From: a virus
Strand: one strand, 5' to 3'
IMG/VR virus record: IMGVR_UViG_3300032893_000217
Coordinates: 1 to 31,556 of that record
DNA: 31,556 nt
The notes beneath the pieces were generated by a model. It was not told the origin of the DNA. It ran no database searches and saw only the letters and a list, made by a program, of their open reading frames with translations. Within the stretch, counting starts at the first letter, position 1. Each line of letters starts with the position of its first letter. The translations under genes were made by a program, and so were the position numbers. Of this stretch, positions 5,330 through 29,379 are shown piece by piece.

Positions 5330-5539
5330 TCAGCAGCTCGATCCACTGGGCGGAAGCATCTTATTGGACACCTGAGGCCCCTCCGCGCGGCGCACAAGTT
5401 CGGTTTCGATTGCGCAGATCACCCAATCCCAGACCGAACGCCGTCCCCGCGCCTTTAGTCCCCACAAGAGTTGCGTGACATCCTCATAGCTCAGCGACCG
5501 CAGGTAGTTATCCATCATCGCTTCCTTCTTCTGGCTCAT
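5330..5539 (-). CDS. Small 69-aa protein coupled to the fibre gene
   Basis: The ATG at 5539 overlaps the TGA of the large fibre gene (ATGA), which decides the start; an in-frame GTG at 5569 lies inside the fibre gene. The protein reads MSQKKEAMMDNYLRSLSYED, VTQLLWGLKARGRRSVWDWV, ICAIETELVRRAEG, and is mostly helical and amphipathic, with no signal peptide. It could be a chaperone or assembly factor for the fibre, since phage fibre genes are often followed by a small coupled chaperone gene, but this is inferred from position only. I do not recognise the family. Confidence 0.65.
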   Translation of the reverse strand: MSQKKEAMMDNYLRSLSYEDVTQLLWGLKARGRRSVWDWVICAIETELVRRAEGPQVSNKMLPPSGSSC

Positions 5540-8500
5540 AAGCAGCCCGTTCCGATGTTCGTTGACCACGTATTCGACAGCGGGTCTTGAGACGCGCCGG
5601 CGGGCGTCAGGGGACCGGGATTGGCCCCGGCGGAATAGGTCATGCTGGCGTTGCCGCTGAACACAGCCGACGATGATCCCCCGAGATTATTGACGCAGAC
5701 CGCCCCCGCCGAAGACCAAACTTGGTTTGCCGCAACCCCCGTTTGATCGTACCAATTACCCATGTTGTAGATCGGACGATAGAAATTTGCGTTCCATTCG
5801 GCAACCATATTGCCGTTAAGATTGCCATCCGTAGAAACGAATCCGGCCGTTGGATTGCTCATGTAAGGTGAATCGGTCGAGTTGTAACGACCGACGCCCT
5901 CGTTGTAGAAGCCTGCGACATTGACAGCAAGTGGAGCCATCTGCATTTGCTGGCCTCCGACGTCGATGCTCATGGCTCCCGCGGATGCTGCCACGACATA
6001 GCCCGTTGCAAGGCCTGCTATGTTGCCGCCATGCGAGGATGATCCTGAGGCAGACGCAAAGTGGAGCGCCGACCCTGCCGTCTGCGCCGAGTCTCCGGAA
6101 TAACATTCCGTCCCTGTAAGCGTCCCTGTCCCAGCAGCAACGGCATAACCTTGCGTATCAGCCTGGAAACCATAATCCCATGCAGTCGAGCTACCCGACG
6201 CCGTCGTAAAGTGGATCGTAGTGTATCCGGTCCCGTCCAATTCTACCGAAGAATTGGAAGTGATAGGATTTGTTCCACTCACCGCCGCGCCATCGAAAGC
6301 GTAGTAGATAGTTTGAGACCCTGTGTTCCAGAATGTATGCTTATGGAATCCGTTCTTGTCCTGATTTGCGAGTGTAATCGAGGAGTCGCCAGTTGTCACG
6401 CTAACGCTTGCAAATTCAGTTGATGCTGCCGGATAATAATGGCCTGCAACTGTGGTTGTATTTCGCAAGCAAATGTCACCATCGTTGTTTATGAGGCTCA
6501 CGCGCTCGCTTGTTGTATTTCCAGAAGGCCAAGAAGCCGTGTTATATGTGTTGCTGTTCCAGTTAATGGCATTCCCCGTATCATAGCGCCAAGTCGATCC
6601 GACGCCCGCTCCTGAAACAAGCTTCCACAAACTGCTGCCAGTGTTGTTTAGGCTGATTCCTGGCCCGATTAAATTCGCTCCGTATCCTGGCATTGTATTG
6701 TTGGCGATCGAGTTGATTGTCAGGAGGCCGCCGCTGCCGACCGTTACGCCTATCGATTCCGAAACCGTAGAATCTGTAAACGTGCCGCCGCCGCCGATGC
6801 GGTTGGTTATCAGAACGTTTCCGATATTGGTGATCGGCCCGACAGCCACGCCTGGATTAAAGTGATAGATAGCCTGCAGCGTGCTGGCCTGCGTCGCCTC
6901 GGCGTATTCGATGTTGTATAGGCGATGCGAGGACGCCGCGGGAGAACTTGAATCCTCGCCGTGACCGTTCGGCGAGCGATAATGCATTCCCTTGACGAAG
7001 TTGGCCGCGAAAGTGGTGGTCGTCCAATGCTCGACGAGCAGCGTCGTCGTGTTGCCTGTGTCCGCGATAGCCGAGATGGACGAGGCGCCCCCCGATCCGA
7101 CTTGCACCGTCTGGCCGGGTGTAACAGTATTGACTCCGACAGTGGCCGTCCCTGTCAACGAGTAATAGAGATTGTTAGCGCCCGTGTTAGTAATCGCAAC
7201 GAGCGGGCCTCCGGAATCGGTCGTAGTTGAAGATCCAGGGAAGCCGGTTAGAGTCGTTGACGCAGCAGTCGCCGTAACAGATGCCTTAACATAGTTATAT
7301 GAGCCAGGAGAATTGCCGTAGACGTGCGCCTGATTATTCAGGAGCGCATTGTGATCGATCAATATGCCGGGATCATCAGCCGCGTCAGAAAATCCAGAGG
7401 CGAGCGATACGGGAGATATGTTGGCTGCTGCCTGCTGAGTTGTTACTGTGTCGCCCTGATTGCCGGCGCCAGCCGAATTGCAGCACGGATCTGTCGCCTT
7501 AAGATCAACTGTGTTCCACTCAAACATTTCGCGCCCCGCTGGAAGGGACGACCCCCCAGCCGAGAAATTAAATGGAGAGCCCCCCGCCGCATTGATGCTA
7601 GCTTGCGTCGCATAGTTTGAGTTCTCGGCGTCCATAACAAAGTGATTGTCGTGGACTTTATATGACGCGACTGAGCCCGTGTTGACGTAGCCGAAGACCT
7701 GCGTCGCAGCATGGCCGCCCGTAGCCGCAAGCTCTAGATTGGAAATATCAACCGTTTCTGCGGCTGGGTCATAGCAGAGAATAATCGGGGAAGCCGTGCC
7801 GCTTGCTCCTCCGTAGCCGCTACCATCATTGTACCCAAGCCCATTGTTAAGGCCACCAAAATGCGGCCCAACGGCTGTGCTGGGATAAAATGCTCCGACA
7901 TTCTGGAAATAGTATTTAGGGACGCCGTATCCCTGCGTTTGCGCGGCGTCCGCATTCGACTTCGGATCGAAATAAACGCATGCCTGATATCCGGCATAAG
8001 TTCCTGATGAAATGCAGAACTGGCTGCCGATCGTGCAAGGCTGGGCCCGGCAATCGGAACCGCCAGTAGCCCATTCCGTGTCTAGATTGGCGAGACAGGC
8101 CGAAGATGGTTTAAGATTGGTGATCGTGGCGGGGTCGACCAGCGTGACATTGCTGCGGACGCCACACTTGTAATCTACGCCGCAATAGCTGTTGTTTGGC
8201 CTGGCAACAAGCCACATTGTCTCGTGCGGCGTGGTAAATGTGGTCTGCGACAACTGCCAGTGCTGGCATGTTGTTGACGGCGTCCCGTCCAAACAACTGG
8301 ATAGATAAACCCCGCCCGGAATGTGGGTAAAATCATCCTCGATCGTAAGCCCTACAGCAGCTCCCAGTCCCAGACTGCCAGAATCCAGCGTCAATTCGCC
8401 GCCAGCCGTGATTTGGGCCGAAACCGACGCCACGACATAGGTCTGCCCAGACTGCGCAGCATCGCCCGCCGTACCGCCAGAATTGGCGAAAAATGTCACA

Positions 8501-11500
8501 TCCTGGAATGTTCCATATGGCCCGCTGCCGGGGCATTGATCTCCCGATGCTCCATAGATGCAGCCATTAGGCAAGGAGGCCATGTTGGCGATTGTCGCGC
8601 ACTCAGCAATTCCCGCGCACCCCGTTCCGTCCCCCGCGCGCGGGCGGGCGTAGAGGTCACCAGGAAAGGCTGCCATATTGGCGGGCGTTCGATTGGCAAA
8701 GCCCGTAACGGTAGTGTGATAAAACCCAACAAGGCCCGTTCCATCGCCGCCGCCTACGGATGTTCCGGCAATATCATTAACGTTCGACGTGTTGTCGTCA
8801 AAAACATCGACGTTGCCTAGCCCGCTTGTAGCCTCTGCCCAATATCCCCAATTCTGAGATCCAAGCGTGAATGGCGTGCCCGCCCGGCCGATATATTCGC
8901 CCATCCATGACATGGGAGCGGGGTACGGATTTTGGCTGGTGCAGCTCCCGCAAGTGGTCGTCTGGCCGATTGATCCGACGCCGAAAACCGGCTGCCATGC
9001 GCCCGTCCGCGATCCGTGGCCAAGCAGCACTCCGGTATAGGTAAACGTCGGCGTGCACCCGGCGTCGCCCCCAATCGCGCCAGTCGAGATCGAGGAGGTC
9101 GAGTAGCCGATCCCGTTCGGCTGTGCGACGCCGTCGACAGTGTACGTAGTGAGGGAGAGCGTATAAGATCCGCCACTGAAATGCAGCGTGCCGGTCTGAG
9201 TAACGCCGGTCTTCGTTGCTGGCGGATTGCCAGTCGGAGTCTGAAAGCTGATGAGCGTCCCGTCGAGCGTTCCCGCGCATCCCGTGTTTCCGGTTACGGT
9301 TGGTGTGGGATTGCCTTGCAGGCCATATTCAGTAGTCCCATCCCCGCCGGAATAAGTGTCAATCTTATGGCCGATAAAGGCATCTACCGTATAGATCTTG
9401 AACAGCGTCGCCTCATCGACAATTGATCCGACTTCCTGGTAGTCTGTAATCGATCGATTCCCCCAAACCATTGAGTTGACAATCAGTCCATTATGGATAG
9501 GGCTTATATTGTTCTCTGCGTACACATTAAACGCAGCCGCGCCGGTAGTCGGCCCGTAATCCTCGACGATCGACTGAATAACAGCCCAGTCCATCATGGC
9601 CGTGATCGGGAGCGCAGTCGGGCCTGGACCTGTATTGACATAAAAGCCATTCGGGGTTGCGCAGCAGCTTTTTGTTACCTTATCAAACGCGATAAACACT
9701 CCATGATCGACTGAGGCGTGTGGAGTTGTACCCTGCGCGTTAAGCTGCATCCCAAGCCCATAATAAAAATCGCCTATAGACGAGTGTAGCTCAACTTTAC
9801 CTCCCGGTTTACCATAAATCGTGCTTTCGTATTGCTCAAACGATTGCGTGTAAGATGTGTTTGGAGTTGCTGTAATTCCTCCAGTGCACGCCCTGCCATC
9901 GTACATTACCCCCTCGAACCTAGCGAGAGCCGTTTCATAAATCATATACGGGCAAGTACCGTTGATTTGCAAAGTATCATAACGGTAAATGTGGAGCGAC
10001 TTCATCTCGGGAGGCCCGGCGGGCGCAGTGGTGCCCGAGCTGGTCGTATTATCGCTCTCCACATCAACGGAATATCCAGACCCAGACGAAACGACCAAGT
10101 CAGTTATTGCGGTGTTATAGCCCCATGAATTATTTGTGGCAGTGGCATTTGCGGTAATCGTTACCGGAGTTCCGATTGTCCCTCCGCTGGCCCCCCGAAT
10201 GGTTAGGGGGACGAAACACGAAGACGGGCGGGGAACATCGCCACCCGAGCCCATGCCAGACTCGGAACCACGAGTAATGCTCGAAACAACATAGATTGTT
10301 GCCCCGCAGGCATCGTTGTGCGTCGGGGTGGAGTTAGAATTGTTGTACGTCTTGAGTGCGTCTGCGGCCGCCTTGATGCTCGCATAGGCGATCGACGAGC
10401 CCGGATAGGTGGAGCAGTTCGATCCCTGCTGCACGGTAGGCGTTCCGGCCCCCGAGCCGTCAACCCAGGCACAAACCGCCCCGTTAGTATAGGTTCCATT
10501 TACGTCGTTGTAGGCCTGCAAATTACGAAGGTTGGCCGTTACGGAGCTCGCCGCGGTCCCAATTGCAACCGTGACTATCGAGCCATCCGAGACGGACCAT
10601 TGAGAGCCAGCGTTGATGTCGAGCGCCAAGCAAGGGGTATGTCCGCTGGGGCAATTGCTGGTTACGTTTGGGTCGGTCGGCTCATAGTAGACATAGGCGT
10701 CGCCGTTCGGCCGGCTGTCTACGGGATCAGTCGATCCGAAACCAGTCACATTGACGTGCTGGCCGAAATGGAACCCGGCAACAGATCCGCAATCGGTTAA
10801 AAGCCATTGCGTGACGGATGTGTGGACTTTGCATGTCGTCGAGACTGGGCCGCCGAAAGCATTCTGCGTGTCGAGAGTCGCTGTGCCATAGTTGGGATAG
10901 ACAATCGCCTCAACCGCGATTGGCCCTTGATTCAGCGAGGCCTGGTCGGACGAGGAAAAGGTGGCCTCGTAATCATAAACCGGCTGCCCGGCATAGACCG
11001 AAACGCTATCCGAAGCTCCTGCGACGTCCGTATAAGACTGCGAGGTCTCATTTGCCGTGGCGTTGGCGGATATCGTATAAATGCCCGTCGTGGCGCATGA
11101 CCCGGCTGAGTGCGTGCATGCTCCGGATGGAAACGCCGTGATCTGCACGCCGCCGGAGGGAAGGCCCGGCCCGTTGATCCATTCCCCGAGCCAGACGCCA
11201 GCTTGAATAGGCAGGCCGGTGGTCGCGTCGGTAGCCGAAAAGGCGCTGATATTGAGCGTGGCCGCGCCAGAACTTAGGCTTGCGGTAAACTGGCTCTGTC
11301 CGACCGTCATCGAATTTGATGTGTCAGAAATTAAAATAGGGCTGGCGTTTAGCTCAATCAGCACCGAGTTCAGGGAATTGTTGGGGACGACCGTCAGCCG
11401 ATCGCCGGCGAAGAAATGCGCCGTGCTGTCGCATGAGGTGAGGACATTCGACCCCTGCGTCGCCGAGCAATGGGCGACGAGTTGGCCCGTCCATATCCCC

Positions 11501-12447
11501 TGCGATGTAGCAGTGTGAGAAACCGAGTGCCCTGCCGTATCCTTCGCGACGAATTGAACCGCCTTGACGGTAGCGCCGTTCAGCGGGAATCGATGCGCGG
11601 CGACAAATGCAGTCGTGAAAGAACCTCCCGACGCCCATCGCTGGCCCGGCTCCGTCAGCCATCGCCCTACGGGGTACGTTTCGCCTGCACCATTGTAAGT
11701 GTTCGCGAAGTACCCCCCGCCAGAGAGGTTAGTAACGGGGAAGCCCGTAACGGCCAGATTTGAGACCGCAGAACTGTCTGTGTAAAATGCCGGTAGTGCG
11801 TCCATCGTAACGACGTCGCCCGGCTCAATATAGTCAGAAAGCGCAATAACAAGATTGGCGGACGACCCCGCGGCCCACTGCTGCCAGGCCACGGTCCCGC
11901 CCGTGCCTCCATATGAGGCCGGAAATGGGTATCTTACAGGAACCGTCCCATAGACCTTTTTGGAGCAATTCGTGACGGAAAGGCTCGAATTGTAGCATGG
12001 CCTTGTCACGTTAAATGTGACCATGGGCGTTGTAGTATCGGCGCTTAGTCCGCCGTTCGAGAAGTATCCCTGATAGACTCCGTTAAACGTTCCGCCTGTG
12101 GCCATCTGGGCAAGCGTGATTGTCGCGGTCCATCCGTCTAGATATGACGTAGACAGGCTATTGCCTGTAATCGGGCCATTTATCTCGACAGACGTTACTT
12201 GGCCGGGAATAGTCGCGACGCCCATCGAGCCGAGCGATAGCTGGGCATAATCATACGCATGGGCGGACTGGATGCCGAGGAAAAGCGCGAGCGCGCCGAT
12301 CAGCCTCATGGGCCAAACTCCGTAATCTCGAGGAAGCCGCCGCCACGACGGCGTGGGCGAGACGACACCGGCACGAACGGCCTGTGCCGCAGCTAGGCTC
12401 GGAACGCCCGCGATCATGACTATGAGAGCTAGCATGTGCGAGATCAT
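5536..12447 (-). CDS. Giant secreted beta-helix/tail-fibre-like adhesin (up to 2303 aa)
   Basis: The longest gene in the window. The protein is rich in Gly, Ser, Thr and Asn and built of beta structure. A pectin-lyase-like segment begins near residue 686 (AYASIKAAADALKTYNNS, then CGATIYVVSSI). Further parallel beta-helix-like stretches occur near 965 (FNVYAENNISPIHNGLIVNS) and 1600 (YKVHDNHFVMDAEN, later ILIDHNALLNNQAHVYGN). Two related domains with NTGANNLYYSL and NTGSQTIYYAF lie further on. Such proteins bind or degrade surface polysaccharides; no catalytic residues could be identified. The ATG at 12447 overlaps the previous stop and begins one signal peptide; a second ATG at 12309 (residue 47) has a good GGAG site and begins another (MRLIGALALFLGIQSAHA). 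Signal peptides are odd for a virion fibre. GC content and codon use differ sharply from the rest of the phage. Confidence 0.85.
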   Translation of the reverse strand: MISHMLALIVMIAGVPSLAAAQAVRAGVVSPTPSWRRLPRDYGVWPMRLIGALALFLGIQSAHAYDYAQLSLGSMGVATIPGQVTSVEINGPITGNSLSTSYLDGWTATITLAQMATGGTFNGVYQGYFSNGGLSADTTTPMVTFNVTRPCYNSSLSVTNCSKKVYGTVPVRYPFPASYGGTGGTVAWQQWAAGSSANLVIALSDYIEPGDVVTMDALPAFYTDSSAVSNLAVTGFPVTNLSGGGYFANTYNGAGETYPVGRWLTEPGQRWASGGSFTTAFVAAHRFPLNGATVKAVQFVAKDTAGHSVSHTATSQGIWTGQLVAHCSATQGSNVLTSCDSTAHFFAGDRLTVVPNNSLNSVLIELNASPILISDTSNSMTVGQSQFTASLSSGAATLNISAFSATDATTGLPIQAGVWLGEWINGPGLPSGGVQITAFPSGACTHSAGSCATTGIYTISANATANETSQSYTDVAGASDSVSVYAGQPVYDYEATFSSSDQASLNQGPIAVEAIVYPNYGTATLDTQNAFGGPVSTTCKVHTSVTQWLLTDCGSVAGFHFGQHVNVTGFGSTDPVDSRPNGDAYVYYEPTDPNVTSNCPSGHTPCLALDINAGSQWSVSDGSIVTVAIGTAASSVTANLRNLQAYNDVNGTYTNGAVCAWVDGSGAGTPTVQQGSNCSTYPGSSIAYASIKAAADALKTYNNSNSTPTHNDACGATIYVVSSITRGSESGMGSGGDVPRPSSCFVPLTIRGASGGTIGTPVTITANATATNNSWGYNTAITDLVVSSGSGYSVDVESDNTTSSGTTAPAGPPEMKSLHIYRYDTLQINGTCPYMIYETALARFEGVMYDGRACTGGITATPNTSYTQSFEQYESTIYGKPGGKVELHSSIGDFYYGLGMQLNAQGTTPHASVDHGVFIAFDKVTKSCCATPNGFYVNTGPGPTALPITAMMDWAVIQSIVEDYGPTTGAAAFNVYAENNISPIHNGLIVNSMVWGNRSITDYQEVGSIVDEATLFKIYTVDAFIGHKIDTYSGGDGTTEYGLQGNPTPTVTGNTGCAGTLDGTLISFQTPTGNPPATKTGVTQTGTLHFSGGSYTLSLTTYTVDGVAQPNGIGYSTSSISTGAIGGDAGCTPTFTYTGVLLGHGSRTGAWQPVFGVGSIGQTTTCGSCTSQNPYPAPMSWMGEYIGRAGTPFTLGSQNWGYWAEATSGLGNVDVFDDNTSNVNDIAGTSVGGGDGTGLVGFYHTTVTGFANRTPANMAAFPGDLYARPRAGDGTGCAGIAECATIANMASLPNGCIYGASGDQCPGSGPYGTFQDVTFFANSGGTAGDAAQSGQTYVVASVSAQITAGGELTLDSGSLGLGAAVGLTIEDDFTHIPGGVYLSSCLDGTPSTTCQHWQLSQTTFTTPHETMWLVARPNNSYCGVDYKCGVRSNVTLVDPATITNLKPSSACLANLDTEWATGGSDCRAQPCTIGSQFCISSGTYAGYQACVYFDPKSNADAAQTQGYGVPKYYFQNVGAFYPSTAVGPHFGGLNNGLGYNDGSGYGGASGTASPIILCYDPAAETVDISNLELAATGGHAATQVFGYVNTGSVASYKVHDNHFVMDAENSNYATQASINAAGGSPFNFSAGGSSLPAGREMFEWNTVDLKATDPCCNSAGAGNQGDTVTTQQAAANISPVSLASGFSDAADDPGILIDHNALLNNQAHVYGNSPGSYNYVKASVTATAASTTLTGFPGSSTTTDSGGPLVAITNTGANNLYYSLTGTATVGVNTVTPGQTVQVGSGGASSISAIADTGNTTTLLVEHWTTTTFAANFVKGMHYRSPNGHGEDSSSPAASSHRLYNIEYAEATQASTLQAIYHFNPGVAVGPITNIGNVLITNRIGGGGTFTDSTVSESIGVTVGSGGLLTINSIANNTMPGYGANLIGPGISLNNTGSSLWKLVSGAGVGSTWRYDTGNAINWNSNTYNTASWPSGNTTSERVSLINNDGDICLRNTTTVAGHYYPAASTEFASVSVTTGDSSITLANQDKNGFHKHTFWNTGSQTIYYAFDGAAVSGTNPITSNSSVELDGTGYTTIHFTTASGSSTAWDYGFQADTQGYAVAAGTGTLTGTECYSGDSAQTAGSALHFASASGSSSHGGNIAGLATGYVVAASAGAMSIDVGGQQMQMAPLAVNVAGFYNEGVGRYNSTDSPYMSNPTAGFVSTDGNLNGNMVAEWNANFYRPIYNMGNWYDQTGVAANQVWSSAGAVCVNNLGGSSSAVFSGNASMTYSAGANPGPLTPAGASQDPLSNTWSTNIGTGCL
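12307..12321 (-). promoter_or_regulatory. Internal ribosome site and alternative start of the giant fibre gene
   Basis: GGAG at 12321-12318 lies eight bases before the ATG at 12309. That start yields a protein beginning with its own signal peptide, 46 residues shorter than the one from 12447. The upstream start has no visible Shine-Dalgarno and would rely on coupling to the stop at 12444. Confidence 0.6.
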
Positions 12448-14279
12448 GGGACGCTCGAAACTTTGAAGGTGAATGCAGCGACCTTAGACGAGTTCTCGTC
12501 CGTAAACGTCGTCCCCGTGGAGAAGGTCGGCCACGTTCCCGTAGTGACGCTCGCGTAGTAGAGGCCAACAAACAAACTACCTGCAAGTAGAGCGTAAGAG
12601 GCAGTACTAGCGCCCATTATCGCCGATGCTTGAGGAACACTCAAATTTGGGCCATAGAACTTAACGCTGCTGTCACCGCTGTTGGTACAGAAAAAGTAAA
12701 CTCCGGGCGGTAGGGCGATCGCCGTGAAGGTGTATGAAAGGACGCCGGTGCTCGTGTTCGCGAGCGCGCCGCTGGAGGCGAGCGGAGCCCCCTCGGGCTG
12801 CCATATGCCGGTTGTGGCGTCGGGAGCCGTCCCTGCGCTATAAATCGCCATTGCGGAGTTTGTCGTTCCGACGGTGCTGATGTAAGTATCTATCTCGCTG
12901 ATGTGGATCGCCTGCGTGAGGCGAAATGGGGCGCACTCCATGCGGGAGGCAGTGGCCAATGCCGTGGCGGCAATGGTCGCATAAGGGAAAGAGGGATAGT
13001 ACCGTCCGGCCACGTAAGCTGCCCAATATGGCGTCGTGCATGCTCCCGCGTCCACGACGTTCCCATTGGCGTCGAACTTCGCGCAGTCGCCGGACGTCAG
13101 CGTGCCGCTCGCGGTCGCAACCGTGGTCCCGTTGCCGCTCGTCGGATAGCCGCCGAACGATCCGGCGTTGTTGAACTGGATCTGGCCGCTCGAGCCGCCC
13201 GGCGAGCCGGTTCCGCCGCAGCCCGCGCCGGAGTCGACGAGGTTCCCACTGGCGTCGATCTTCACGCAGTCGCCGGTCGTCAGCGAGCCCGTGGTCGAGG
13301 CGATCGTCGTCCCGGTGCCCGACCTGTTGTAGCCGCCGAAGCTGCCCGAGTTGTTGTACTGCAACTGGCCGCTGGAGCCGCCGGGCGTGCCCCCGCAACC
13401 CGCGCCGCTGTCGACGAGGTTTCCGTTGGCGTCGATCTTGACGCAATCGTTCGAGGCCAGCGAGCCTGTGGTTGTCGCAAGGGTTGTGCCGCTTGAGTTG
13501 GAAAGCGCCGTAGCTTTGACAACTGAGGTTCCGGTTCCCACGGTCGCAACACCGCCCAACACGCCAGCGTTGTTGTACTGGATTTGTCCGTTTGTACCGC
13601 CGGGAGGCGAGGAAACGCCCGTCTGAGCGAAATAGTTAGTCCCGTCCGAAACAATGCCTGCGCTCTGCCCCGCCAGAAGAACGAGGGTGGCCGCCTTGTT
13701 GATCTGTGACGTTGTCGGCGTGATTGTCGCCGTTCCTGCGCCTAGATTTTGGATCGACGCGACGAAAAAGCCCGAACCGAATCCGGTCGTCCCTGCTTGC
13801 GGAAGCGTGACAGCGATCGAGCTCGCGTTTGAAAGAGTGATGAGCTTGCCGCAATCGCTCGCCGAGATCGTGTATGTCGTGCCCGTCTGCGCGTTAGGGG
13901 TTATTGCGGTCGAAACCGTGACAGCGCCCGTCAGGGGACCGCCCGCGGGGCATGTCGTCGTGATCGAGCTCACCCCTCCGGAGCAGGCCCCGCCGGAGTC
14001 GACAAGGTTGCCGCTTGCGTCGATGGATACGCAATGGCCGGTCGTCAGCGAGCCCGCGGTGGTGCCGATGGTCGTGCCGGGGCCGGACCTGCTTAGGCCG
14101 CCGAACGACCCGGCGTTGTTGTACTGGACCTGCCCGTTGGAGCCGCCCGGGGTCCCTCCTCCGCCGCCGTGCCCCGGAGGGGGCCCGATCTGCGACCACG
14201 AGGGGTCGACGACCGATAGCGCGGCCAGCAGGGCCACGCCGCGCAGGAGCGCCGCTCGCGGCCTGATGATCGGACGCAT
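12444..14279 (-). CDS. Secreted tail-fibre-like protein with four GSNGQ repeat modules (611 aa)
   Basis: The ATG at 14279 overlaps the stop of the preceding gene, which fixes the start; the frame extends 30 codons upstream inside that gene. The protein begins with a signal-peptide-like segment (RGVALLAALSVVDPSWSQ), then a glycine linker (GPPPGHGGGGGTPGG). Four modules follow, each with a G-x-x-GQ-(V/I/L)-Q-(Y/F)-NN-(A/S)-G-x-(F/L)-GG motif and a D-C-V-K-I-D-A-(S/N)-GNLVDSG motif. Between modules one and two sits a domain widespread in phage tail fibres (TYTISASDCGKLITLSNAS, VTLPQAGTTGFGSGFF, TATITPTTSQI). The C-terminal 200 residues, from YWAAYVAGRYYPSFPY to FKVSSVP, are probably the receptor-binding tip. 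The fibre call is firm; the export signal is unusual for a virion protein. Confidence 0.85.
   Translation of the reverse strand: MRPIIRPRAALLRGVALLAALSVVDPSWSQIGPPPGHGGGGGTPGGSNGQVQYNNAGSFGGLSRSGPGTTIGTTAGSLTTGHCVSIDASGNLVDSGGACSGGVSSITTTCPAGGPLTGAVTVSTAITPNAQTGTTYTISASDCGKLITLSNASSIAVTLPQAGTTGFGSGFFVASIQNLGAGTATITPTTSQINKAATLVLLAGQSAGIVSDGTNYFAQTGVSSPPGGTNGQIQYNNAGVLGGVATVGTGTSVVKATALSNSSGTTLATTTGSLASNDCVKIDANGNLVDSGAGCGGTPGGSSGQLQYNNSGSFGGYNRSGTGTTIASTTGSLTTGDCVKIDASGNLVDSGAGCGGTGSPGGSSGQIQFNNAGSFGGYPTSGNGTTVATASGTLTSGDCAKFDANGNVVDAGACTTPYWAAYVAGRYYPSFPYATIAATALATASRMECAPFRLTQAIHISEIDTYISTVGTTNSAMAIYSAGTAPDATTGIWQPEGAPLASSGALANTSTGVLSYTFTAIALPPGVYFFCTNSGDSSVKFYGPNLSVPQASAIMGASTASYALLAGSLFVGLYYASVTTGTWPTFSTGTTFTDENSSKVAAFTFKVSSVP
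13020..14150. repeat. Four degenerate in-gene modules of the tail-fibre protein
   Basis: Related DNA segments centred near 13130-13195, 13310-13380, 13545-13600 and 14095-14145 encode the repeated GQxQYNNAGxFGG motif, each paired with a segment encoding DASGNLVDSG. The first, second and fourth in coordinate order are GC-rich and close; the third is more diverged. Such modules allow fibre-domain exchange by recombination. Confidence 0.75.
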
Positions 14280-14635
14280 CAGTTGAACTCCACATACATC
14301 TGGGTGTTGGCGCCGGAGGCGATGCAGTTGAGGTCGGCGTGGGGGACGCCGCGGGTGGCGGGCCCCCACAGCGCTGACTGGCTCGCAGCCATCTGGATGG
14401 ACAGCCCGTCATTCAGGACCGGCGTCGAGCCCCAGGAGCAGGCGATCGAGTTCGAGGAGTCGACGTCCTGCACCTGGACGTGCTGGTAGGAGCCTGCACG
14501 CAGGCATCTCGTCGACGACGTGCCGACGATGCACTTCGTGAAGGTAAAATTCTGGTCGTCGGCCTCGGAGGCCGACGGCAGGGCCAGGGCCGCTGCGGTC
14601 AAGGCGACCGCCATGGCCAGGTTCAGCTTGCTCAT
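14279..14635 (-). CDS. Secreted 118-aa protein
   Basis: The ATG at 14635 (MSKLNLAMAVALTAAALALP) begins a clear signal peptide with cleavage near SEA-DDQ; GGAGAGGG lies about twelve bases upstream. The frame is open further up but without a start signal. The mature protein is about 95 residues, with four cysteines (in TKCIVG, RCLRAG, IACSWGS and LNCIAS) that could form two disulphides, consistent with export. It contains GLSIQMAASQSALWGP and ends QMYVEFN. Its stop overlaps the start of the fibre gene, so the two exported proteins are co-translated. I do not recognise the family. Confidence 0.8.
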   Translation of the reverse strand: MSKLNLAMAVALTAAALALPSASEADDQNFTFTKCIVGTSSTRCLRAGSYQHVQVQDVDSSNSIACSWGSTPVLNDGLSIQMAASQSALWGPATRGVPHADLNCIASGANTQMYVEFN

Positions 14636-14708: not shown

Positions 14709-15395
14709 TCAAAGTCCGTTATGGAACCGTCGCCCGCCCAGGCCCACGCGCAGGCGGATGTTGTTGCCCCCTCGGCGCCCGTCCCAGCTCAGCGGCTTCA
14801 CGGCGATGCGGGCCACCACGGCGAGGTCGTCCTCGCCCTCCTTGGGCCACTCGTTGGCCAGCGCGGCGGCGTGTTCGGCCTGGATGTAGCCCACGTGCAC
14901 CCAGGCCCCGCTCTGGCCGAGGCAGGCCGCCCTCCAGGCGTACGCCATGACGGCGTTGCCGTCGAACGTGTTGCCCGGCTCGCGCACCAGCAGGACGATG
15001 GTGTCGACGCCCTTGTGATCCAGCAGCTGCTTGGCCTCGGGCGGACGGTGGTGGGTGCCAACCAGTGCCAGCTCCTCCGCCGATAGCTCCTTGCTGAAGC
15101 GCACGGGGACGTATTCGAACGCGCTGTTGAGGGCCCTGGCGGTCTTCTCGCTGTCACGCGGCTGTTTGGGGCGCGCCTGCCTCACCCGCTTACCGAACTC
15201 TGCCAGTACCTGCTCGATGGCGCAGGGCGGCACCAGGCCCTCGACGCGGACGTGCTTCTCGCGCTCGATCGTGAGCCTCGCGCCGAACGGCCTAACGGCC
15301 TCGCGCAGCTCCTCCAGCGCGTCGCCGATGGTCGGGCGGACCTCCCACTCCACCATGATCCCCTCTATCTCGCGGCTCTCGTACCTCTTGCCCAT
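14709..15395 (-). CDS. HIRAN-domain protein (228 aa)
   Basis: The ATG at 15395 (MGKRYESREIEGIMVEWEV) is preceded by GAGGAGAGAGG and chosen over an upstream in-frame codon at 15548 that would run through the structured intergenic region. Residues about 130-215 match the HIRAN domain: VLLVREPGNTFDGNAVMAYA (R-E-P-x-N-x-x-D-x-N-A-V), then WVHVGYIQAEHAAALANEW, the G-Y-(I/L)-x-x-x-x-A-x-x-L-A motif. HIRAN domains in HLTF/Rad5 bind the 3' end of DNA at stalled forks. The N-terminal 100 residues are basic, without helicase or nuclease motifs. Placement next to the SSB-like and nuclease genes fits a role in recombination or fork repair of phage DNA. Domain call good; function inferred. Confidence 0.8.
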   Translation of the reverse strand: MGKRYESREIEGIMVEWEVRPTIGDALEELREAVRPFGARLTIEREKHVRVEGLVPPCAIEQVLAEFGKRVRQARPKQPRDSEKTARALNSAFEYVPVRFSKELSAEELALVGTHHRPPEAKQLLDHKGVDTIVLLVREPGNTFDGNAVMAYAWRAACLGQSGAWVHVGYIQAEHAAALANEWPKEGEDDLAVVARIAVKPLSWDGRRGGNNIRLRVGLGGRRFHNGL

Positions 15396-15444
15396 GATGG
15401 CCTCTCTCCTCGGCTGTCCCCTCTCTAGGGTGCCTAGAATGGAA

Positions 15445-15473
15445 GATGCCCCGACGCGGAGCGCCGAGGCACC
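15445..15473 (-). other. Strong hairpin in the leader of the HIRAN gene
   Basis: On the minus strand GCCTCGGCG and CGTCGGGGC pair over nine positions (two G-U) around a CTCCG loop, with three further outer pairs. There is no U-tract. It lies between the candidate structured RNA and the ribosome site of the HIRAN gene, and may act as an insulator or part of the same RNA. Confidence 0.5.
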
Positions 15474-15490
15474 AATGCTTGGGGTAGATG

Positions 15491-15621
15491 CTTCCTGCTG
15501 GAGCGTGCAACGGGATCGAACCGGCACACCCGTAGCTGTTGCTGTCACAATCCTACCCGGCCTTGGCGGGTCGCAGGATGGTCCGGCTTCACGGACCTGG
15601 GCTAGTGGCCCCAGCAGGAAA
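15491..15621 (-). ncRNA. Candidate structured RNA with five helices and a T-loop-like hairpin
   Basis: Between the SSB-like and HIRAN genes the minus-strand transcript can fold as a closed multi-branched RNA. P1 is an 11-bp closing stem (TTTCCTGCTGG at 15621-15611 with CCAGCAGGAAG at 15501-15491). Inside are P2 (GGGC/GCCC at 15611-15599, weak and sharing a base with P1), P3 (GGTCCG/CGGACC, 15597-15580), P4 (ATCCT..ACCCG with CGGGT..AGGAT, 15579-15550) and P5 (GTGTGC/GCACGC plus CGG/CCG, 15529-15503), whose seven-base loop TTCGATC equals a tRNA T-loop. It does not fold as a tRNA. It could be a free RNA or a leader element of the HIRAN gene. Based on manual pairing only. Confidence 0.45.
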
Positions 15622-18624: not shown

Positions 18625-21087
18625 ATGCCGGCTAAGCGCTGGGACTTCAGGCCCGACGAGCTCGAGGCCTACGGCGGCATGGAGCTCATACCCCTGCACC
18701 GCCCGGACGACGTCGACGCCAAGGGGCGCCGGGTCGGCAAGGCGCCCCTGTCCTCCGGCTGGCGCCGCTCGCCGGCCCTGTCCGCGGCCGAGGCCAGGCA
18801 GCTCATGTCCGAGGAGGGGCACAACGTCGGCGTGCGCCTGCGCGACGTGGACCTCGTCATCGACGTCGACCTGCGCAACTTCGCCGAGGGCGACGACCCC
18901 CTCAGGCGCCTGCAGGCGGACCTGTCCCTCGACCTCAGCGCGGCGCCGCGGGTCGAGACGGGCTCCGGCGGCCAGCACATCTACATGCGCAAGCCGCCCG
19001 ACGTTGCGCTCCGCGACAGCCTCGAGGCCTACCAGGGCGTGGAGTTCAAGAGCCTAGGCCGCCAGGTGGTGGCCGCCGGCTCGGTGCACCCCGACACGGG
19101 GCGGCCCTACCTGCTCGACCCGCTGGGCGAGCCGCTGTCCGCCGCCCCCCTGGCGCCGCACGCGCTCATAGAGGTGGCCAAGCGGCCGGGCCGCATGGCC
19201 GGCGCGTCCGCCGGGAAGCTGCGCGACCGGCCAGAGGCCCTCGAGGAGGCGCTGTCCTTCCTGGACGCCGAGCAGTTTGGCAAGGGGCGCCACGAGAGCT
19301 GGCTCCAGCTGATGATGGCCTGCCACCACGCGACCGCCGGCGAGGGCCGCGCGGAGTTCCTGGCGTGGTGCGCCACGGACCCCGAGTACGCCGGCCAGAC
19401 GGGGATCGTCGGGCGGCGCTGGGACAGCCTCCACTCGGACGGCACCCGCAACATCACATGGCGCCACCTGTTCAAGCTGGTCGCCGCCACCGGGGACGTG
19501 GGCCGCGCCTGGGTGCGCGAGGTCGACCGCGTGCCCCCGGAGGCCGACTTCCCGGACTACGAGGAGCCCTCGGGCTCGGACGACCTGGAGGAGCTGCTGC
19601 GCAGCATCCCCGAGGGCAACTCCTCGGTCAGCGAGGCGCTCGAGTGGTTCAACCGCCAGGGCTTCTGCGCGGTCATGGACGACGGGTCCTTCAGGGTCAT
19701 GCGCCAGGTCGAGGACACGGTCTGGACCATCCCGGGCGCCGACGGCAAGCCGCGCATGCGGTGGGAGAGCTACCGCCGCAGGGACTTCCTCGACTACTAC
19801 GAGACGAAGAAGTGCGAGAGTGGCGACGAGGGGAAGCGGAAGACAGAGCAGGTCGCCGCCAGGTGGCTCGGGTGGGGCAACCGCCAGTCCTACGAGGGCG
19901 TGGTGTTCGACCCCGCCGGCCGCTTCAGGAACAAGCGCCTGCTGAACCTCTGGACGGACTGGGCCGTGCAGCCGAAGAAGGGGGACTGGTCGCTGCTGCG
20001 CCGCCTCCTCCACGAGGGGCTGTGCGCAGGCCGGGACGACTGCTTCGAGTACTGCCTCAAGTGGGCGGCGAACATGGTCCAGGTCCCCGACAGGCCCGCC
20101 GAGGTGGCCGTCGTGTTCCGCGGCGGCAAGGGCACGGGCAAGGGCACGTGGGGCCGCGCGCTGGCGCGCCTGTGCGGCAAGCACGGGATGCAGATAAGCA
20201 ACCAGCACCACTTCACGAACCACTTCAACGCCCACCTGCGCGACTGCATCTTCCTGTTCGCGGACGAGGCGATGTGGGCCGGGGACAAGAGGGCCGAGGG
20301 CGAGCTCAAGCGCCTGGTGACCGAGGAGACCCTGGCCATCGAGGCCAAGGGGCGCGACGTCGTGAACGTGCGGAACATGCTCCACGTCATGATGGCCTCG
20401 AACGAGGCCTGGGTGGTCCCGGCGTCCCTCGACGACGAGAGGCGCTTCGCTGTGTTCGAGGTGGACCCGAGGTTCCAGGGTAACCACAGGTTCTTCAGGG
20501 AGCTCAACGACCAGCTGGAGGACGGCGGCCTGCAGGCCCTGCTGTGGGACCTCAAGACGATGGACCTCGAGGGCTTCAGCCCCCGGTCCGCCGTGCCGAG
20601 GACCATGGCCCTGGCCAAGCAGAAGGTCGCTAGCATGGACTTCCTTGACCAGTGGTGGTACCACTGCCTGGTCATGGGGTCGATCGGGGACGGGATGCCT
20701 GCGGCCGCCGGGTCGTGGCGCACCGGGCCCGCGCGCTTCATGTCGCACGACCTGCACCAGTCGCTCACCGACTACCTGCATGCGGCCGGCGACCGCCGGG
20801 CGACCAAGCGGTCGGTCATGACGTCGCTCGGCGAGAGGATAAGGCGGAGGGTCCCGACGGCGCGGCACGTCAGGTTCAGGGCCCCCAAGGACAGGGCCGC
20901 AGACCTGGGGCAGTGGCTGGGGGAGGACGGCCGCGTGTACGGCTACGACCTGCCCTCCGTGGCCGACTGCAGGCGCATCCTGGAGGAGCAGGTGGGCGGC
21001 GCGCTGGAGTGGGGAGAGGAGGGGGCGACCGACGTGGACGACTCCGACCCTGCCGCGGTCGCAGACGAGTTCGACCCGCTGGCCTGA
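18625..21087 (+). CDS. Primase-polymerase/SF3-type helicase (820 aa)
   Basis: This protein primes and unwinds DNA at the phage fork. The N-terminal part is an archaeo-eukaryotic primase-polymerase: GHNVGVRLRDVDLVIDVDLRN places the metal-binding D80/D82, and ETGSGGQHIYMRKP (111-124) is the SGG-x-H motif. A linker follows (MACHHATAGEGRAEFLAWCA, then RRWDSLHSDGTRNITWRHL). The C-terminal half is a DUF5906/D5-like ATPase with Walker A GGKGTGKGT (near 499-507) and Walker B-type CIFLFADEAMW (near 541-551), plus HVMMASNEAWVVPASLDDERRF, which holds the sensor asparagine and an arginine-finger candidate. All expected catalytic residues are present. It pairs naturally with the polymerase and SSB-like protein. 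Confidence 0.92.
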   Translation: MPAKRWDFRPDELEAYGGMELIPLHRPDDVDAKGRRVGKAPLSSGWRRSPALSAAEARQLMSEEGHNVGVRLRDVDLVIDVDLRNFAEGDDPLRRLQADLSLDLSAAPRVETGSGGQHIYMRKPPDVALRDSLEAYQGVEFKSLGRQVVAAGSVHPDTGRPYLLDPLGEPLSAAPLAPHALIEVAKRPGRMAGASAGKLRDRPEALEEALSFLDAEQFGKGRHESWLQLMMACHHATAGEGRAEFLAWCATDPEYAGQTGIVGRRWDSLHSDGTRNITWRHLFKLVAATGDVGRAWVREVDRVPPEADFPDYEEPSGSDDLEELLRSIPEGNSSVSEALEWFNRQGFCAVMDDGSFRVMRQVEDTVWTIPGADGKPRMRWESYRRRDFLDYYETKKCESGDEGKRKTEQVAARWLGWGNRQSYEGVVFDPAGRFRNKRLLNLWTDWAVQPKKGDWSLLRRLLHEGLCAGRDDCFEYCLKWAANMVQVPDRPAEVAVVFRGGKGTGKGTWGRALARLCGKHGMQISNQHHFTNHFNAHLRDCIFLFADEAMWAGDKRAEGELKRLVTEETLAIEAKGRDVVNVRNMLHVMMASNEAWVVPASLDDERRFAVFEVDPRFQGNHRFFRELNDQLEDGGLQALLWDLKTMDLEGFSPRSAVPRTMALAKQKVASMDFLDQWWYHCLVMGSIGDGMPAAAGSWRTGPARFMSHDLHQSLTDYLHAAGDRRATKRSVMTSLGERIRRRVPTARHVRFRAPKDRAADLGQWLGEDGRVYGYDLPSVADCRRILEEQVGGALEWGEEGATDVDDSDPAAVADEFDPLA

Positions 21088-25088: not shown

Positions 25089-25408
25089 GACCAGTCCTCC
25101 TCCTCTCGGCCTGGGGACCATCCCCGGGCGTCCATCCTGGCCCAAATTCTGGGCCAGACTGCGGCGCCGTCCGACCTGTCCGGCCTACGTCCGACCTGTC
25201 CGACCTAGAGTCGCTCAGATTGCGGCGGAGTTCACCTGCCGTCTGACCTGTCCGACCTAGAGTGCGCCGAATTGCGGCGGAGTTCGCTTGCCGTCTGACC
25301 TGTCCGACCTAGAGTTGCTCAGATTGCGGCGATGACTGCCGCAATTCGGCGCACTCTAGGTCGGACAGGTCGGACCCAGAGTTCTCCGGGTCACTCTGGG
25401 TCCGACCT

Positions 25409-25445
25409 CGTCTGACCTTGTAAAAGTAGGTCAGACGACCTTTTT
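25409..25445 (+). terminator. Iteron hairpin followed by T5 on the plus strand
   Basis: CGTCTGACCT (25409-25418) and AGGTCAGACG (25428-25437) pair perfectly over ten bases around a nine-base loop; three bases later comes TTTTT (25441-25445). No plus-strand gene precedes it, so it may be an incidental consequence of the iteron geometry. Confidence 0.35.
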
Positions 25446-25499
25446 GCCTTATATTTCATATACTTACACCACTGGGTCCGACCGTCTGACCTCCGGACG

Positions 25500-25551
25500 A
25501 TACACATGTGTGCGTGTGTGTGTGTGTGCGTGCGTGCACGTACGCGCACAT
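25500..25551. repeat. 52-bp perfect purine/pyrimidine alternation, GT-rich
   Basis: Every base from 25500 to 25551 alternates purine and pyrimidine, mostly as GT/GC/CA steps, with a (GT)n core. Such tracts can adopt left-handed Z-DNA under negative supercoiling. It sits inside the 77-base loop of the long inverted repeat of the iteron array. Confidence 0.95.
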
Positions 25552-25618
25552 TACCGACTTAGTGCTTTAAGGTCAGACAGGTCGGACCCAGTGGTCTAAG
25601 TATATGATATTACTACAT

Positions 25619-25655
25619 AAAATCTGTCCGACCTAGGGCTTTTAAGGTCAGACAG
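25619..25655 (-). terminator. Likely intrinsic terminator of the 28795-25840 operon
   Basis: On the minus strand CTGTCTGACCT (25655-25645) pairs with AGGTCGGACAG (25634-25624) over eleven positions (one G-U) around a ten-base loop, then ATTTTATG. It lies about 185 bases after the stop at 25840 and is made of two iterons. Confidence 0.5.
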
Positions 25656-25839
25656 AGGTCAGACAGGTCGGACCCAGAGTGCCCCGGGGGCGGCCATTGG
25701 TCGTCTCTGGGTCCGACGTGTCCGACCTCCGGAGCGCCCAATTGCGGCGCGATGCGCCGCCAGCCGGTCAGCCAGAGGGGGACTGCGTCCCAGAGTGGAC
25801 CACCCGCAGCGGGCCTTCTCGCCGGCGCGCGATGGGCGG

Positions 25840-26205
25840 TCAGCCCGCCTGCTCCGCCTCCTGCCAGCGGGCCAGGAATGCCTGCAGCCACTCGGCCTGC
25901 GCGAGCATCTGCGGCGCCGCCGCGCCCAGGAGCGCGTCCTGCGCCAGCGACGCGAGCATCTCGCCCGCGCCGCCGCCGGCGGCCCGCAGCCCCTCGTTCC
26001 CCGGCAGGGCGAGCCAGTCCTCCAGCTCGTCCAGCTCGTCCACGAGCCGGACGAGCGGGTCGTCCGGCCACACCCTCCAGCGCAGCGAGGGGTGCTTCGC
26101 GCGCATCCTGCGGGCCTCCTCCCTCGCGGCCGCCCGGTCCGCCCCGTGGTCGGACAGGGCCAGCCAGCGGCCAGACTCCGTGTTGAACTGCACCTCGACG
26201 CCCAT
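25840..26205 (-). CDS. 121-aa helical protein
   Basis: The ATG at 26205 follows GAGGAGGG at nine bases. The first half has MGVEVQFNTESGRWLALSDH, GADRAAAREEARRMRAKHPS, LRWRVWPDDPL, a strand-helix-strand unit; the second is helical and acidic (VRLVDELDELEDWLALPGNE, EMLASLAQDALLGAAAPQML, AEWLQAFLARWQEAEQ). No membrane segment or signal. I do not recognise the family. It is the last gene before the iteron array, and the frame upstream of its start is a shadow of the neighbouring gap and gene. Confidence 0.75.
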   Translation of the reverse strand: MGVEVQFNTESGRWLALSDHGADRAAAREEARRMRAKHPSLRWRVWPDDPLVRLVDELDELEDWLALPGNEGLRAAGGGAGEMLASLAQDALLGAAAPQMLAQAEWLQAFLARWQEAEQAG

Positions 26206-26710: not shown

Positions 26711-27457
26711 TCACACCGCGGGGAACAGGTCCCGCAGCGTGGCGCCCTCGACCGTCACCCTGCACACCCCGTCGCCCGCGATCGCGTAGGTCTGCCCGAG
26801 CTCGGGCGTCTCGCCCACGCGCTCGTGGGCGAACGTCCGCGCCCGCTTGAGCGTCCGGAAGGTCCGATGCCCGTGGGCGCCGTCGACGGCCGACCACGAG
26901 ACGACGATCTCCGAGGGGCTTGCCTGCGGCCTGCGGCCGGGCACGGCCACCCCGGCCTTCCGCATGTCCAGCGCCACGCTCGCGAGCGAGCGCGCCGTGG
27001 TGCGGGCAGCAGGGTACCGCCCCCTCACGCAGGCGACGATGTCCGCGTAGGACATGTCCGTCTCGAGCAGCTCCATGCAGAGCCGCCCGATAGCGCCCCG
27101 CTCGGGCTTCTCGGCCGGCGCCTCGGGCTCCTCGGCCTGCGCCTCGGGCTCCTCGGCCTGCGCCTCGGGCTCCTCGGCCTGCGCCTCGGGCTCCTCGGCC
27201 GGCGCCTCGGGCTCCTCGGCCGGCGCCTCGGGCTCCTCGGCCGGCGCCTCGGGCTCCTCGGCCGGCGCCTCGGGCTCCTCGGCCTGCGCCTCGGGCTCCT
27301 CGGCCTGCGCCTCGGGCTCCTCGGCCTGCGCGCCCGCGAGGGCCGCGATCGAGGCCTCCAGCTTCTCCCGCGAGGACTTCCACGAGGCCAACTCGGGCAT
27401 CCCCGCCTTGGCGCGCAGGGCGTTGAGCTCCGCGAGCCGTTCCTTGGTCGTCGACAT
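26711..27457 (-). CDS. 248-aa protein: eleven 7-residue acidic repeats, then HTH-like and C-terminal domains
   Basis: The ATG at 27457 (MSTTKERLAELNALRAKAGM) has AAGGAGAG at eight bases and is chosen over an upstream in-frame codon at 27589 that runs through a palindrome. Residues 43-119 are eleven tandem copies of A-(Q/P)-A-E-(E/K)-P-E, a rigid acidic linker. Residues about 123-175 hold the HTH-like domain shared with the AAA+ and 98-aa proteins (MSYADIVACVRGRYPAARTT, ARSLASVALDMRKAGVAVPG, RR). The last 60 residues (VVSWSAVDGAHGHRTFRTLK, RARTFAHERVGETPELGQTY, AIAGDGVCRVTVEGATL) look like a separate beta-rich domain. It may bind DNA with one end and a partner with the other. Function unknown. 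Confidence 0.75.
   Translation of the reverse strand: MSTTKERLAELNALRAKAGMPELASWKSSREKLEASIAALAGAQAEEPEAQAEEPEAQAEEPEAPAEEPEAPAEEPEAPAEEPEAPAEEPEAQAEEPEAQAEEPEAQAEEPEAPAEKPERGAIGRLCMELLETDMSYADIVACVRGRYPAARTTARSLASVALDMRKAGVAVPGRRPQASPSEIVVSWSAVDGAHGHRTFRTLKRARTFAHERVGETPELGQTYAIAGDGVCRVTVEGATLRDLFPAV
27101..27331. repeat. Eleven 21-bp in-frame repeats with two alternating variants
   Basis: The minus-strand unit encodes AQAEEPE or APAEEPE. In gene order the variants run Q-Q-Q-P-P-P-P-Q-Q-Q-P, the last unit having K for E. The block structure suggests duplication of multi-unit segments. Confidence 0.95.
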
Positions 27458-27540
27458 GTTCCGCACTCTCCTTCTCCGGGCGGACCGCTCCGCCTCACCA
27501 CCCCACAGTAGCCCGTTTCTCGGGCTCCGCGAACTGCATA

Positions 27541-27612
27541 ATGGGCATGGGCCCATGCCCATGTCCCCGGGGCCCGGCTCCCCGCACATGCCCGTCCCGC
27601 AGGGCGGGCATG
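27541..27612. repeat. 22-bp perfect palindrome and adjacent hairpin
   Basis: ATGGGCATGGG and CCCATGCCCAT are directly joined (27541-27562), giving a loopless palindrome. CATGCCCG (27587-27594) and CGGGCATG (27605-27612), with an inner CCC/GGG, form a second stem sharing the same CATGCCC core. A small AGCCCG/CGGGCT stem lies at 27510-27525. All are in the gap between the 124-aa and 248-aa genes. Confidence 0.85.
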
Positions 27613-28795: not shown

Positions 28796-28829
28796 GACCT
28801 CACACCTTTCTCTAGCGTGGTTTTAGGCA

Positions 28830-28980
28830 CACTTTCTATTTCACTTTTAGTTTTTGTTTTTGTTTTTGTTTTTGTTTTTTGTTTTTGTTTTTTTATTTTT
28901 CATTTTTTTAATATAGTACTTTTTTTTTAAAAGTAAAATCACAAAATATTACAACATTGTAGTAATGTGTTATTATAAAA
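28830..28980. other. Extremely AT-rich segment with GTTTTT hexamer tract
   Basis: In a genome otherwise very GC-rich, this 150-bp segment is nearly all A and T. GTTTTT occurs seven times from 28850 to 28892 (one unit has an extra T), followed by runs of T up to nine and A/T-mixed DNA. ACATTGTAGTAATGT (28954-28968) is an inverted repeat with five-base arms. It lies in the divergent gap 28796-29379 and is a candidate unwinding element or promoter region. Confidence 0.8.
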
Positions 28981-29029
28981 ACCCACTTCCAAAACGTGGT
29001 ACGCCCCCCTGCCTGGGCTCAGCCCACCC

Positions 29030-29249
29030 GCCGTAGGTCCCCCGGAGCCGTATTTTCCAAAAAGCCGATTTCCGAAAAAATAAAAAAGTCGCCAGGCCCC
29101 ACGTTTCTCCAGAGTGCCGTAGGCCCCCCGGAGCCGTATTTTCCAAAAAGCTGATTTCCGAAAAAATAAAAAAGTCGCCGGGCCCCACGTGCCGACCCGC
29201 CGTAGGCCCCCCGGAGCCGTATTTTCCAAAAAGCCGCCGGGTCCCACGT
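29030..29249. repeat. Three direct repeats of a 75-bp unit with A-tracts
   Basis: Copies lie at 29030-29104, 29116-29190 and 29199-29249. Each starts GCCGTAGG, has CCGGAGCCGTATTTTCC then A5, and in the two full copies GATTTCCGAAAAAATAAA, and ends CCCACGT. The third copy lacks 24 internal bases, consistent with slippage between two GCC copies. They lie between the T-rich tract and the plus-strand operon starting at 29380. Open frames across them are composition artefacts. Confidence 0.92.
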
Positions 29250-29379
29250 GCCCACCCACCATATGGGCGCCGCGGATGGAAATTTGTGGGGTTTGCACCG
29301 TCAGGGGGGCTACCCCGGGCTCCAGAGTGTGCCATAGTAGGGTCCTAGGGGGGCCGCACGGTGTGAAGGAGTGAGGTCC

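Follow-up and report, generated by a model that had tools for sequence, protein, structure and literature searches.

A mirror-symmetric iteron array in a tailed-phage contig is a probable replication origin of the P4-alpha/SaPI-PICI Rep type

Introduction

P4/D5-type SF3 helicases drive replication in many phages, satellites and large DNA viruses. Iteron plasmid origins (RepE/RepA/TrfA type) are built differently, with tandem direct repeats bound by non-helicase initiators. Phage P4 (NC_001609) encodes alpha, a primase-SF3 helicase with a DUF5906 domain and a Toprim-type N-terminus. Its origin, ori1, holds six type 1 repeats of a short iteron, GGTGAACAG, found in both orientations, with the spacing 10-11-21-44-10, one inverted site and a 36-bp spacer of 81% AT in the 44-bp gap. 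The second repeat cluster of P4, crr, consists of pairs with 44-bp gaps and lies directly 3' of alpha, while the origin is on the other side of that gene.

PICI origins are located immediately 3' of rep, function there as origins and have two iteron sets flanking an AT-rich region (PMC6092414). SaPI Rep, which has been reported to bind as two hexamers, and SCCmec Cch2 both bind iterons downstream of their own genes through their C-terminal domain (PMC7581432). A 2025 survey of the Mesyanzhinovviridae, a family that includes phages with related primase-helicases, mentions in its text neither a replication origin nor iterons (PMC11946847).

Here we describe an iteron array in an IMG/VR viral contig, a linear fragment from a tailed phage; the whole stretch analysed, 31,556 nucleotides, is referred to as the window. 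An earlier note, made from the sequence alone, had proposed the array as a candidate phage origin or a new kind of control centre.

Results

Iteron array of the window

The 9-mer GTCYGACCT, also written AGGTCGGAC, is present in 20 exact copies in the window, all within positions 25169-25728, against a mean of 0.70 and a maximum of 3 per record in 100 dinucleotide shuffles. Allowing up to one mismatch, 23 sites are found inside the array and 19 are scattered across the other 31 kb. These counts bear out the earlier note, which had described about twenty copies in both orientations, and the exact motif is enriched only in the array, with no copy elsewhere in the record and 0.7 expected. The note had called the region gene-free, and no gene with a family match was found from the start of a small minus-strand ORF (25032) to the stop, at 25840, of another ORF on that strand. 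The adjacent pairs (copies spaced 9 bp), the 52-bp direct repeat (three units, 25188-25343, identity 79-83%) and the perfect 16-bp inverted repeat (25367-25382 / 25393-25408) were all found again. The two longer inverted repeats were recovered in altered form: the '34 bp perfect' arms are contained in a 47-nt pair of 89% identity (25241-25287 / 25329-25375), and the '36/37' repeat came out as 31 nt with 94% identity (25453-25483 / 25580-25610). The AT-rich islands inside the array are also present (25431-25468 and 25585-25636) and are the sole 38-bp islands with AT of at least 0.68 before 28.8 kb. The proposal that the 9-mers build the terminator of the upstream operon did not hold, as the only terminator-like site (25428-25441) is on the plus strand, opposite to the minus-strand flanking genes, and such sites are no commoner than chance predicts (1 found, 0.5 expected). 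The suggested GC-skew check was uninformative on the origin: the cumulative minimum, at about 29 kb, falls where the genes change strand, and since the skew follows gene strand it is no test of origin position.

The elements of the array are as follows.

25169..25728, no strand: whole iteron array, 23 sites 5'-GTCYGACCT-3' (at most one mismatch), both orientations, intergenic
25169-25186: further iteron pair of the accessory part
25188..25343, plus strand: accessory part, three 52-bp direct repeats, each an adjacent iteron pair plus a ATTGCGGCG motif
25358..25375, minus strand: inverted iteron pair closing the accessory part, in the long inverted repeat with 25241-25287
25400..25673, no strand: candidate core origin, mirror-symmetric array, from site positions, spacings and self-complementarity
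25400, 25410, 25428 (inverted), 25476, 25484: sites of the left half of the core
25431..25468, no strand: AT-rich spacer of the left arm, from inverted single iteron to inner pair, candidate DNA unwinding element
25500..25551, no strand: alternating purine-pyrimidine (GT/GC) tract, 52 bp, at the dyad centre, potentially Z-DNA forming
25570, 25579, 25626 (inverted), 25645, 25656, 25665: sites of the right half of the core
25585..25636, no strand: AT-rich spacer of the right arm, candidate DNA unwinding element
25711..25728, plus strand: outer iteron pair right of the core, from site positions

From left to right, the core reads pair, inverted single, pair, centre, pair, inverted single, triple. 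Its dyad centre is at about 25531, and among all trial centres on the array stretch self-complementarity was highest at 25531.5. Apart from the tract at this centre, no alternating purine-pyrimidine tract of the record reaches 18 nt. The centre is GT/GC-rich (AT 0.45), and the AT-rich DNA sits in the arms, where both islands fall in the two 47-48 bp spacers of the core. The accessory part (25169-25375) is composed of iteron pairs, mostly in 52-bp steps, with the inverted pair at its end. A second motif, ATTGCGGC(G), occurs among the accessory iterons (window positions 25219, 25271, 25323, 25338 on the minus strand, and 25741), and GCCGCAAT repeats near the end of the record of Rhodobacter phage RcRudolph (L075 13281-13423) are related to it.

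Candidate initiator and gene context

The window carries genes for a DNA polymerase, a Cas4-like exonuclease (DUF2800), an Enc34-type single-strand binding protein, a Prim-Pol/helicase, an AAA ATPase and the small and large terminase subunits. Its own DNA polymerase, exonuclease and terminase genes, together with its likeness to phages of 63-65 kb, set it apart from satellites. The earlier note had seen no initiator gene adjacent to the array; a P4-type primase-helicase gene does exist and had been missed because it ends 4.1 kb from the array.

18625..21087, plus strand: candidate initiator, with Prim-Pol (17-175), PriCT-2 (207-284) and SF3 helicase DUF5906 (498-607)
Residues about 655-800 of this protein: helicase C-terminal domain, predicted winged helix
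23241..24332, minus strand: AAA ATPase, phrog_1250, adjoining the array syntenically in Rhodobacter phages

A confident model (pLDDT 88) was obtained for the last 166 residues of the helicase, folded together with 69 relatives. Its best structural neighbours were mostly winged helices, all with Z values below 8; the top one was RFX5 (Z 6.0), and Orc1/Cdc6 and Cdt1 (Z 4.4-4.9) were tied with other winged helices. Foldseek returned no significant match with this model, and neither the structural matches nor the compared chains included the solved P4 origin-binding domain, an absence that does not exclude likeness. The helicase of one relative (L274) matched Pfam RFX_DNA_binding at 1.6e-4, under the curated cut-off of the family. 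P4 alpha matches DUF5906 and the Pox_D5 C-terminal domain, and it aligns weakly with profiles of the window helicase family. Plasmid-type initiator families (RepE/RepA/TrfA) had no match in the window. In phages RDJL Phi 1, RDJL Phi 2 and RDJL6, relatives of the window Prim-Pol/helicase are annotated as integrase, a kind of misannotation already pointed out for related phages (PMC11946847).

Other features of the contig include two ORFs inside the replication module, 5536-12447 and 12444-14369 (minus strand), of 2303 and 641 aa, neither with a Pfam or PHROGs match, the longer one having a GC content of 53-60% vs about 69%. A 279-aa ORF (14709-15548, minus strand) has a borderline HIRAN domain match, and eleven 21-bp repeats (27101-27331) within a 292-aa minus-strand ORF (26711-27589) likely encode a repetitive protein segment. 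An AT-rich stretch with T-rich tracts, 28817-29273, contains three 75-nt repeats (29030-29273) and is located at the gene strand switch and GC-skew minimum, upstream of the terminase small subunit gene (29788); it is a possible packaging site or second replication element.

Conservation of the array in close relatives

Among named phages, RcRudolph and RcSimone-Hastad of Rhodobacter are nearest to the window, with identities of 70-71% in the Prim-Pol/helicase and 66% in the AAA ATPase, and gene order around the helicase and AAA genes is the same as in the window. Both keep an array of the same iteron in the same place, upstream of the AAA gene (L075, RcRudolph, 11322-11884; L076, RcSimone-Hastad, 11751-12270), which is unannotated in their records. 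In these arrays the two orientations are largely separated, one to the left side and the other to the right, and most of the exact genome-wide copies (14 in RcRudolph and 16 in RcSimone-Hastad) are in or just beside the array. The sole distant copy conserved in both phages is a perfect palindrome of the 9-mer, CCGTCCGACCTAAGGTCGGACGG, just upstream of the primase operon (L075 2124-2142, L076 2329-2347). This palindrome is likely an autoregulatory operator of the iteron binder, which would therefore probably also regulate transcription there.

A further contig, L196, encodes a helicase 65% identical to that of the window and has no array of the window iteron. It carries instead a GTGTGGGCACGTGTGTGCGTATGCG tract surrounded by AGGTGCGTCGGT copies of either orientation at about 26.8-27.3 kb of the contig, on the same side of the AAA gene (22.0-23.2 kb) as in the window. 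Place and style of the array have thus been kept while its sequence has changed.

Arrays beside helicase genes in distant phages

When 2.9 million viral contigs were scanned for GTCYGACCTGTCYGACC, further dense arrays of the window iteron came up in four unrelated phages. In L030, L045 and L048 the array directly adjoins a DUF5906 helicase gene, and in L022 it adjoins the gene of a VapE-like Prim-Pol helicase. As each of these arrays is beside a P4-type helicase gene, the helicase is pointed to as the binder. The C-terminus of the L022 helicase had no significant match to the family profile, so the same iteron adjoins helicases without demonstrable C-terminal homology; convergence, a domain swap or a shared host factor are candidate causes. 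The window iteron is found beside VapE-like helicases in L022 and L054, and L020 has a looser cluster of related motifs. Motif matches in plasmids and in phage ParMal1 were set aside, as no SF3 helicase adjoined them where the records are annotated (that of Ensifer is not).

Relatives were fetched with a helicase alignment query, which yielded 80 loci (single-protein scans gave almost none), and arrays were sought 3' of the helicase genes with no motif assumed. Of 69 non-redundant DUF5906 helicase genes, 15 were followed within 400 bp on the 3' side by four or more copies of an 8-mer, with both orientations represented. Elsewhere in these loci the same held for 19 of 3866 stretches of 400 bp (odds ratio 56, p about 1e-18). 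This p value is nominal, the loci not being fully independent and the 69 including the L030 and L045 arrays that prompted the test. Some of the background matches are themselves displaced arrays, such as that of L238, with 12 sites 2.4 kb away. Most of the 69 helicases had no detectable array within these 400 bp, and in several distant relatives (PaMx74-type phages) none was found in the stretch searched, where a mismatch-tolerant search gave background-like matches only.

The iterons 3' of these helicases differ: CTAGGACA in L245 and L247, AGGTTGGAC in L254, GCTTGGACC in L270, CCTGGACC in L269, GCATGGACC in L264, CATGGGACA in L271, CTAGGACT in L274, and others. L197 resembles the window in that its AGGTTGGAC array lies 4.1 kb away on the 3' side of the helicase gene. 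One mirror-symmetric plan, 2-1-3/3-1-2, is common to nine arrays whose iterons are of several kinds. The left side has one or two sites, then, at a spacing of about 16-28 bp, an inverted single site and, at 34-39 bp, three adjacent sites; the centre measures about 60-115 bp; and on the right are three sites, 34-38 bp, an inverted single site, 20-30 bp and one or two sites. The right inverted single site is missing from L030, and L238 has the same 12-site order with looser spacing. An alternating CG/GT tract occupies the centre of most GC-rich arrays. The window core, 25400-25673, is a version of this layout, which is common but not universal, many relatives having no detectable array. Across 22 arrays, iteron similarity weakly tracked similarity of the helicase C-terminal domain (Mantel rho 0.44, p 0.0016). 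Recognition of the iteron by this domain would produce such a correlation, although shared descent alone could contribute.

Two other repeat types came up in these searches. A AAGCCGGTTGA repeat array is located just upstream of a related helicase gene (L073 2643-2707), the same contig (L199) having CTTAAGGAC sites 2.6 kb 3' of the helicase gene. Many contigs of Lentisphaerae, Verrucomicrobia and Bacteroidota (L077-L190) contain tandem 9-bp repeats with GTCTGACC or GTCCGACC, which are apparently unrelated to origins. A pattern scan of genome contigs gave no usable prophage among the matches listed, which were dominated by 9-bp tandem repeats.

Comparison with P4, SaPI/PICI and plasmid origins

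As in P4, a DUF5906 primase-SF3 helicase goes together with short iterons in both orientations, with Prim-Pol at the N-terminus of the window helicase in place of the Toprim-type domain, and with a different iteron (AGGTCGGAC vs GGTGAACAG). The right half of the core, spaced 9-47-19-11-9, corresponds to the P4 ori1 spacing read in the opposite direction, with a single inverted site in both, the direction relative to the centre not being equatable as the strand correspondence of the two iterons is undecidable. The AT-rich spacer is at the same place (AT 0.71 in the window), and the accessory 52-bp repeats form a second repeat cluster, as crr does in P4. Unlike P4, with one six-site group at ori1 and crr at least 4.5 kb away, the window has two facing groups that flank the alternating tract, with the accessory repeats alongside.

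A self-loading primase-helicase and the presence of two iteron sets recall SaPI/PICI, where the sets flank an AT-rich, putative melting region (PMC6092414, PMC7581432). The SaPI/PICI position immediately 3' of the helicase gene is seen for the arrays of 15 of the 69 relatives, but not for that of the window. The window differs in being from a full-size tailed phage and not a satellite island, in the displacement of the array by 4.1 kb, in its iteron, and in having an alternating GT/GC centre with the AT-rich parts in the arms. SCCmec Cch2 is likewise a D5/SF3-type helicase whose C-terminal domain binds direct repeats downstream of its gene, as predicted for the window, but it has only three 5-nt iterons, no reported mirror layout and a separate polymerase/primase (PMC7581432). 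Likeness to iteron plasmid origins extends to the combination of iterons with AT-rich DNA and, in the Rhodobacter phages, to an operator copy upstream of the initiator gene.

Discussion

We consider it highly probable that the array is a phage replication origin of the P4-alpha/SaPI-PICI Rep type, bound by the phage's own Prim-Pol/SF3 helicase (18625-21087). What the analysis shows is the array itself, its conserved place, its linkage to the helicase family, its shared layout and a weak tracking between iteron and C-terminal-domain similarity; binding, the formation of two rings, melting and firing are inferred. The predicted C-terminal winged-helix domain would bind the 9-bp iterons, and the two site groups facing each other across the 25500-25551 tract would assemble two helicase rings head to head. 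The AT-rich arm spacers would then melt, the rings would load on single strands, and the Prim-Pol domain would prime both forks, with the 52-bp repeats left of the core acting as an accessory binding cluster comparable to P4 crr. A hexameric helicase ring has six subunits, and the match of this number with six sites per half is, by analogy, suggestive.

Of the two proposals in the earlier note, the candidate origin was strengthened by the conserved position, the linkage to a P4-type helicase and the half-site spacing of P4 ori1, while the new control centre was not retained, since the organisation is the known P4/SaPI-PICI rep-ori type. Its distance from the gene and its presence in a full-size phage separate the array from a standard PICI origin, but most probably it works like P4 and PICI origins. 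In open-licence papers we found no description of the surveyed layout, the displaced array or the accessory 52-bp repeats; the layout may have been described elsewhere before.

An alternative that we regard as unlikely is that the array is a crr-like or copy-number/handcuffing element, to which the helicase binds while replication begins at another place, such as the AT-rich repeat region at 28817-29273, upstream of the terminase genes. In P4 it is crr that lies directly 3' of alpha, with the origin on the other side, and the window does have a second AT-rich region with three 75-nt repeats at the strand switch and GC-skew minimum. However, those repeats lie ahead of the small terminase gene, where a packaging site is just as conceivable, the mirror layout with AT-rich arms and a special centre is itself origin-like, and PICI origins directly 3' of rep function as origins (PMC6092414).

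We give far less weight to the array being an operator cluster, through which a repressor, or the helicase as autoregulator only, would control the flanking minus-strand operons. The palindrome CCGTCCGACCTAAGGTCGGACGG at the primase operon of both Rhodobacter phages agrees with such a role, but it is absent from the primase operon of the window, about 20 sites in a fixed mirror layout exceed what an operator needs, the layout is found 3' of helicase genes in other phages and not at promoters, and a scan limited to sigma-70-type promoters found no promoter-like site around the array. A partition site (centromere) bound by a ParB-like protein is the least credible reading: ParB-like genes occur near the L030 array, but the SF3 helicase gene, not ParB, is common to the dense arrays, and no ParA/ParB family match was present among the proteins searched in the window, whose record is a fragment.

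Returning to the origin, we tentatively suggest, at rather less than even chances, that the mirror 2-1-3/3-1-2 layout may be a general, undescribed loading platform for two head-to-head P4-type rings, with one iteron per subunit and a Z-DNA-prone centre. Selection would then act on geometry above iteron sequence, which would change with the helicase C-terminal domain.

Little is known about how P4/D5-type SF3 helicases come to sit on duplex DNA as a pair of opposed rings. Natural origins that keep one geometry but vary in recognition sequence, each alongside its own helicase, make experiments on site number, spacing and swaps possible. The array layout is also a simple predictor of replication origins in phages whose genome papers report none (e.g. 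PMC11946847).
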